A stretch of 6,110 nt of DNA. Origin: Candidatus Fermentibacterota bacterium. Lineage in GTDB: Bacteria; JAFGKV01. Positions 163 through 5,438 of the stretch are shown piece after piece. The stretch lies in assembly GCA_030620115.1 (NCBI GenBank), contig JAUXFG010000201.1, positions 1 through 6,110 of the forward strand, given 5' to 3'. Under the pieces are notes generated by a model that made no database searches, was not told where the DNA came from, and saw only the letters and a program-made list of their open reading frames with translations. The position numbers and the translations under genes were made by a program. Position 1 is the first letter of the stretch. The number at the start of each line of letters is the position of its first letter.

Positions 163-588
163 TCAATCCATCAATTCTTCAATCCCGACGCTCTGACGGC
201 TCTTCTTCCTTACCGCCTGCATCTTCTTGTCCGCAAGCACCTTTTCTTTCGCCCGCTTGGATCGTTTGCGCTTCTGGCGCCGTATCTTTTCGATCCGTTT
301 GCGCTCATCGCTGAGATCCTTGTTGACCTCCTCGGCGATCCGATCGACGAGTCGTCTGCGGGCAAGGAATCGGTTGAGCTCGCGGGACCGGGTCTCCATG
401 CATTTCACCACGATTCCCGTGCGAGTATGTTTCAGCACCACGCATGTTGAGGTCTTGTTGACTTTCTGGCCTCCGGGCCCGGACGATCGCACGAAGCTCT
501 CTTCGATATCCTTTTCCCGTACACCCAACTGGTCCATCTTCTTGGCAAGCGCTTCTATCTTATTTGGCGAAACAATGGAGTGGTGCAT
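163..588 (-). CDS. Peptide chain release factor-like protein (RF-1 domain, GGQ)
   Basis: This 141-aa protein is the catalytic domain of class I release factors standing alone. Residues 31-48 hold SFVRSSGPGGQKVNKTST, including the GGQ tripeptide (39-41) that triggers peptidyl-tRNA hydrolysis in the ribosomal peptidyl-transferase centre. Residues about 49-78 carry the usual 'L-H-TGI-VKC...RSR-LNR' block. The region needed for stop-codon recognition is absent. From about residue 95 the tail is extremely Lys/Arg-rich (KRKRSKRAKEKVLADKK), as in ArfB/ICT1 and mtRF-R (C12orf65)-like proteins, where a basic tail binds the ribosome or ribosomal RNA. The likely role is rescue of stalled ribosomes, but the substrate is inferred. 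The ATG start has AGTAGG about 8 nt upstream, and an in-frame TGA upstream of it leaves no other ATG. The ArfB-like and C12orf65-like subfamilies cannot be separated by eye; the tail looks closer to the latter. Confidence 0.92.
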   Translation of the reverse strand: MHHSIVSPNKIEALAKKMDQLGVREKDIEESFVRSSGPGGQKVNKTSTCVVLKHTRTGIVVKCMETRSRELNRFLARRRLVDRIAEEVNKDLSDERKRIEKIRRQKRKRSKRAKEKVLADKKMQAVRKKSRQSVGIEELMD

Positions 589-5181: not shown

Positions 5182-5403
5182 GGCCGCCGTTGGTGCCCAT
5201 ACCGCGGACGCGACGGAGCGCGTCCCTCCACAGCACAAGATGTACACATTGCTCGATGGAGGGCCATGCTCCGTCATGGCCGCCGTTGATGCCCATAGAT
5301 GCGGACGCGATCCGCCGGCTGGCGGACGTCCCTCCACAGGACAAGACGCACTCATTGCTCGATGGAGGGCCATGCTCCGTCATGGCCGCCGTTGGTGCCC
5401 ATA
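5182..5403. repeat. BIME-like array of paired REP hairpins
   Basis: Two full units (5182-5277 and 5278-5383) and a 20-nt third start (5384-5403) each begin GGCCGCCGTTG. Positions 5247-5288 and 5353-5394 are identical over 42 nt. Each unit has two hairpins in opposite orientation. The plus-oriented ones are GGACGCG-ACGGAG-CGCGTCC (5206-5225) and a longer variant at 5303-5331 with an inner TCCGCC-GGCT-GGCGGA stem. The inverted ones are GGCCATG-CTCCGT-CATGGCC (5262-5281 and 5368-5387). Read in one orientation, all share 'GG-stem-CCCTCCA', and the stem bases change in pairs (A-T to C-G, G-C to A-T), so structure is conserved. In reverse the foot reads GGAG, resembling the heads of RAYT-associated REPs. 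The array begins 10 nt after the ATPase stop. Confidence 0.8.
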
Positions 5404-5408
5404 GTGAT

Positions 5409-5438
5409 GTAGGTCGGGTTAGCGCAGCGTAACCCGAC
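5409..5438. repeat. GTAG-headed REP palindrome of a second family
   Basis: GTAG (5409-5412) is followed by a 9-bp perfect stem, GTCGGGTTA (5413-5421) and TAACCCGAC (5430-5438), around GCGCAGCG. The GTAG head plus palindrome is the classical layout of REPs mobilised by RAYT transposases, and very similar 'GTCGGGTTA...TAACCCGAC' palindromes are widespread in bacterial spacers. It sits 5 nt past the BIME-like array. No RAYT gene is in the window. Confidence 0.75.

Follow-up and report, generated by a model that had tools for sequence, protein, structure and literature searches.

What are the hairpins that follow so closely on a long gene in this stretch of DNA? The window, i.e. the whole analysed stretch of 6,110 nucleotides, carries at positions 5182-5404 a run of palindromes that begins 10 nt past the stop codon of an 844-aa open reading frame, a HerA/DUF87-like ATPase gene. 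Did these arise by chance, are they maintained for a function in the host RNA, or are they mobile repeat elements? As set out below, positions 5182-5404 very probably hold RAYT-mobilised REP hairpins arranged in a short array, a BIME.

Layout and genomic copies of the hairpins

The earlier note had described four hairpins of a shared plan in alternating orientation at 5182-5403, and the description proved accurate. Read from the tag, the general form is TGGAG-GGNNNNN-CTCCGT-NNNNNCC, in which the tag, the loop and the outer GG/CC are fixed and the inner stem is variable. The stretch opens on the plus strand with a truncated B-type unit end (5182-5201), consisting of the outer stem CC and a head-to-head linker of about 20 nt, and representing the third copy of repeat family D2. 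Hairpin A follows on the minus strand (5206-5230; TGGAG-GGACGCG-CTCCGT-CGCGTCC), and a tag-to-tag linker of 26 nt (5231-5256), copies of which are found throughout the genome, connects it to the first copy of hairpin B on the plus strand (5257-5281; TGGAG-GGCCATG-CTCCGT-CATGGCC). A 21-nt head-to-head linker (5282-5302) joins this B to hairpin A' on the minus strand (5303-5336) in one REPIN-like unit. Thereafter come a second copy of the 26-nt tag-to-tag linker (5337-5362), recognized by its length and by repeat D1, the second copy of B on the plus strand (5363-5387) and a head-to-head linker, also in repeat D1, that is shortened before the next element (5388-5404). Hairpin A and both copies of B were identified in the sequence and by pattern match. 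As had been claimed, the stems of A and B differ at paired positions only, and the loop is identical. The hairpin said to have a longer, bulged inner stem is A'. Besides the TGGAG tag and a GGACG/CGTCC stem, it has an inner stem of greater length, TCCGCC/GGCGGA, and a bulge of 3 nt, TCG.

The source genome (4.1 Mb in 296 contigs, 98% complete) is rich in these sequences. The exact pattern TGGAGGGN5CTCCGTN5CC has 120 matches, against 0 for a reversed-pattern control, and a loop-free pattern has 219, against 39 for its control. In a 755-kb sample there are 53 hairpins per Mb, which corresponds to about 200 genome-wide, scattered and not limited to this locus. They are found preferentially in intergenic regions: 21 of the 40 sampled hairpins lie outside open reading frames, where 11.5% would be expected (p = 3e-10), and this preference is, if anything, underestimated because the calling of open reading frames was crude. 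The long-stem hairpin A' is present in 33 copies (control 0). It has spread to these places yet does not have the CTCCGT loop, and it stands next to a B hairpin in all sampled pairs. Its inner palindrome, TCCGCCAGCTGGCGGA, may have originated from another repeat.

Two further features of the window can be mentioned. Positions 163-588 (minus strand) encode a small peptide-release-factor-like protein of 141 aa, which has an RF-1 domain, and positions 760-1000 contain a separate dispersed repeat of the AGATTCTTCGGTCGC...CTCAGAATGACA type, which is found in both orientations and is present on other contigs of the genome as well.

Covariation and the pairing of unlike hairpins

Taken alone, the window is little proof that the hairpins are non-random, and a 279-nt fold of the array stretch is unremarkable (z = -1.5). 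GC-rich palindromes are common. Could these be ordinary dispersed palindromes or terminators that resemble one another by chance? Other genomes are informative here. A scan of GTDB genomes in which the inner stem was left free produced matches in Verrucomicrobiota, Lentisphaerota, Planctomycetota, Desulfobacterota and others. Perfect pairing is seen in 36 of the 70 distinct matches, which represent 36 different stems; in 2000 permutations the mean was 1.0 and the maximum 5. Paired cells amount to 92.9%, 131 cells have changed on both sides, compared with 37.5 after shuffling, and the covariation score of 0.69 drops below 0.1 when the partner column is slid by one. The absence of matches to the control patterns for the exact hairpin and for A' and the covariation across genomes speak against a chance origin, which is refuted by copy number and covariation together and retains next to no probability.

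The stems themselves differ between hosts. The near relative G019 (JALOPK, labelled Candidatus Eisenbacteria), which belongs to the family of the source genome, uses for the most part different stem combinations, namely ACGAC with TCGGG, and these occur also in a Spartobacteria genome and in isolate GL140. Stem pairs common to the three hint that the whole system may have been transferred between phyla.

How are the hairpins arranged relative to one another? Orientation pairing is strict, as adjacent hairpins always face each other, either head to head or tag to tag, and tandem-orientation pairs are absent from the own-genome sample. Head-to-head gaps in this genome measure 18-21 nt and tag-to-tag gaps 26-27 nt. 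The smallest unit is a REPIN-like inverted pair of 68 bp with TGGAG tags outward and with unlike stems (A or A' with B); longer arrays alternate and are BIME-like.

The combination of unlike stems is close to a rule. In the own genome, all 29 of 29 adjacent pairs are heterotypic (an A-type and a B-type stem), where 13.5 homotypic pairs would be expected at random. In 34 genomes there are 99 heterotypic and 11 homotypic pairs, compared with 43.8 homotypic expected. Counted by genome, which is safer than by pair because hairpin copies inside one genome are related, about 29 of the 34 have mostly unlike pairs; the exceptions are Pelagicoccus and one Opitutaceae metagenome-assembled genome. Pairs of unlike REPs are known in other systems, not as a general rule in the text of PMC3733652. 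The different-stems rule suggests that selection disfavours base pairing of one hairpin with its partner.

The probable partner transposase

The earlier note had proposed to look for a RAYT gene with these palindromes on its flanks, and the source genome has one on contig C160. The intact frame of 160 aa (locus L283, about 20652-21131; profile search E = 9e-73) sits between arrays with identical A and B stems, of which the upstream one comprises at least four hairpins and the downstream one at least seven; a stop counted in the profile match precedes the start codon. The protein carries the motifs PDHVH and EYVRHNP (HUH plus Tyr). It scores 93.3 bits against NCBIfam NF047646 (REP_Tyr_transpos; cut-off 80) and 18.7 bits against Pfam PF01797 (Y1_Tnp), so that Pfam alone, with a gathering score of 23, misses it and NF047646 catches it. 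Whether judged by sequence or by the predicted fold (pLDDT 86.8), the nearest solved structure is 4er8, which contains E. coli TnpA-REP together with a REP hairpin.

The profile that detected this gene was built from four RAYTs that were the weakest Y1 matches, in Opitutia, Desulfobacterales, Pelagicoccus and Lentisphaeria genomes, and that have GGAGGG hairpins on both sides. Four Y1 genes of the own genome found by the PF01797 search were rejected as partners, as none is flanked by GGAG hairpins, and the same is true of about 60 further Y1 loci.

Related RAYTs flanked by GGAG hairpins are present in Verrucomicrobiota, Lentisphaerota, Planctomycetota and Desulfobacterota. Among 290 genomes of relatives, picked without regard to the hairpin, true hairpins occur in three (a fourth match is non-palindromic and due to chance), and a RAYT of the clade (E<1e-60) occurs in two, both among those three (p = 7e-5). 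In G019, an 82% complete genome with eight hairpins, no RAYT of the C160 clade was found, and many other genomes chosen for having a hairpin gave no close match to such a RAYT. When the search was extended across the phylum to which genome G319 belongs, only one more close RAYT came to light.

The reading of the hairpins as RAYT-driven, BIME-like REPs in a non-enterobacterial host, as originally put forward, is supported by the copies, their enrichment outside open reading frames, the covariation, the orientation pairing and a RAYT flanked by the same hairpins, and the host is indeed non-enterobacterial. The roughly 200 hairpin copies almost certainly depend on this one small RAYT gene in the same genome. 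That the hairpins move is inferred from their copy number and from the flanking of the RAYT. How might they do so? By analogy with homologous enzymes, the RAYT, a HUH/Tyr single-strand nuclease, would bind the folded hairpin on one strand, use GGAG as a guide and read the fixed loop. It would then cut at a nearby dinucleotide and rejoin the strands, whereby units may be copied or moved and arrays built. Under the guide model of PMC8266576, the predicted cut would be at CT (through A3G4) or CC (through G2G4). The residue homologous to E. coli H101 is proposed to help set the second tag base.

Might the hairpins instead be kept for a function in the host RNA, e.g. protection of the 3' end or transcription attenuation after the HerA-like gene, and not for mobility? 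The beginning of the array just behind the stop codon and the enrichment of hairpins between open reading frames would fit such a function. It leaves unexplained, however, why there are 200 near-identical copies, why their tag is strand-specific and their alternation fixed, and why a RAYT has the same repeats on either side, and no Rfam family matches the window; the explanation is very unlikely. With RAYT-mobilised REPs, a site 10 nt past a stop codon is expected for an element that is tolerated in intergenic DNA. The array may possibly have a role in the host.

The GGAG tag, the loop and known systems

Is this a known type of repeat? The elements share the broad features of REPs and REPINs: many dispersed copies, inverted pairs with fixed spacing, a flanked RAYT and an intergenic preference. 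As in the RAYT/REPIN and BIME systems (REPtrons; E. coli Y/Z BIMEs with TnpA-REP, 4er8) described in the texts of PMC6006769 and PMC3733652, there are tagged hairpins, inverted pairs, fixed linkers, alternating arrays, pairs that combine two REP subtypes, and a RAYT gene with HUH and Tyr motifs flanked by the same repeats. Unlike in REPtrons, the tag is GGAG and not GT[AG]G, the 7-bp stem is perfect, the 6-nt loop is fixed and the stems in a pair are nearly always unlike. A short perfect stem, a loop base important for recognition and D at the E. coli E100 position recall the Group 3/subclass 2.5 TnpA-REP of S. maltophilia and Marinomonas, as described in PMC8266576 and the text of PMC6006769, but that group has short loops and a GTAG tag and differs at the H101 position. 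The motifs of the C160 clade, DH[VI]H, WQ and YV[RQ]xNP, correspond to none of the rows in the published table of subclasses. CGTC-tagged REPs also have tagged palindromes and inverted dimers; they are without a dedicated transposase according to the text of PMC3733652, whereas the GGAG hairpins have one.

The GGAG hairpins and their RAYT are thus a REP/RAYT system in the broad sense, a branch with a tag unlike the published ones. No description of a GGAG tag was found in the literature searched, and the main texts of PMC3733652, PMC2817692 and PMC6006769, figures and supplements aside, nowhere contain the string. As far as the text of PMC3733652 shows, the GTAG and CGTC superfamilies exclude these hairpins. 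According to the text of PMC6006769, the published REP search required a GT[AG]G tag and, in short hairpins, a loop of 2-5 nt; the present loop, 6 nt with the stem boundaries used here, lies outside this range. Published surveys sought hairpins with a GT[AG]G (or CGTC) tag and a short loop, and would thus have passed over the whole GGAG branch in PVC bacteria, Desulfobacterota and Eisenbacteria.

The hairpins of the window carry GGAG in place of GT[AG]G, and so do the hairpins next to the C160 RAYT and next to 20 other RAYT genes. The tags were read by eye off the palindromes that flank each gene. In the RAYT tree, the GGAG-flanked genes form a clade of 18 (99/95) and a small clade of three (100/99), both within a wider group that also contains GTAG relatives, and GGAG has one origin in 75% of bootstrap trees and otherwise two. 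GGAG-tagged loci L294, L295, L377 and L379 have other loops or stems that start with CC and represent further subtypes of the branch.

What might read the tag? In E. coli, H101 lies in a region described in PMC6006769, in the text available, as contacting the GTAG guide. The matching residue is Thr, Arg or Ser in 21 of 21 GGAG RAYTs, never His, and is His in 20 of 22 GT[AG]G RAYTs, the exceptions being L371 (a broken frame) and L373 (a degenerate copy). The rule was noticed on 25 sequences; for the further genes, in which tags were listed before the residues were compared, it holds in 7 of 7 GGAG and 9 of 11 GT[AG]G cases. Fisher's test gives p = 3e-10 ignoring kinship, which is overstated because the RAYT sequences share ancestry, and the association amounts to one or two switches. 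These correlations suggest that the residue may read the tag. It is a candidate and not a demonstrated determinant, because other alignment columns also separate the two groups and Arg at this position is reported in some GT[AG]G subclasses (text of PMC6006769). A broader proposal can be made tentatively, with doubt slightly outweighing confidence: GGAG would be a separate REP/RAYT tag class over several phyla, the H101-position residue (His with GT[AG]G; Thr, Arg or Ser with GGAG) would help determine which guide tag is accepted, and stems would evolve freely but have to differ within a pair. In almost every case looked at, the tag can be predicted from the residue at this position, a link that mutation in vitro could test. 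The branch offers natural contrasts for how single-strand transposases read the guide beside a hairpin.

Why is the loop conserved? CTCCGT and its variants accompany the GGAG tag in most genomes. GGAG is complementary to CTCC, and the common loop variants CTCT, CTTC, CTTT and TTTC can still form Watson-Crick or GT pairs with this tag and have kept T at loop position 2. The loop might thus be kept by pairing with the tag in a pseudoknot-like fold, an alternative that concerns only one step of the mechanism. Against this, A' and the GGAG REPs of L294 and L295 are without the loop, and published RAYTs, namely the S. maltophilia and Marinomonas enzymes, were shown to read specific loop bases directly (PMC8266576). 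A CTCTGT loop is also found beside L296, whose tag is GTAG, and because of this occurrence tag:loop pairing fails to explain the loop. Such pairing is improbable, and direct reading of the loop bases by the enzyme appears more likely.

A second, canonical REP abuts the GGAG array at 5409-5438 (plus strand), with a GTAG tag and GTCGGGTTAGCGCAGCGTAACCCGAC. It has 58 copies in the genome at up to three mismatches (control 0), and exact copies flank the family's own RAYT of 179 aa on contig C200 (locus L033). Seven of the 32 GTAG REPs listed have a GGAG hairpin no more than 400 bp away (contigs C6, C12, C30, C94, C99 and C152), a closeness that looks greater than chance.
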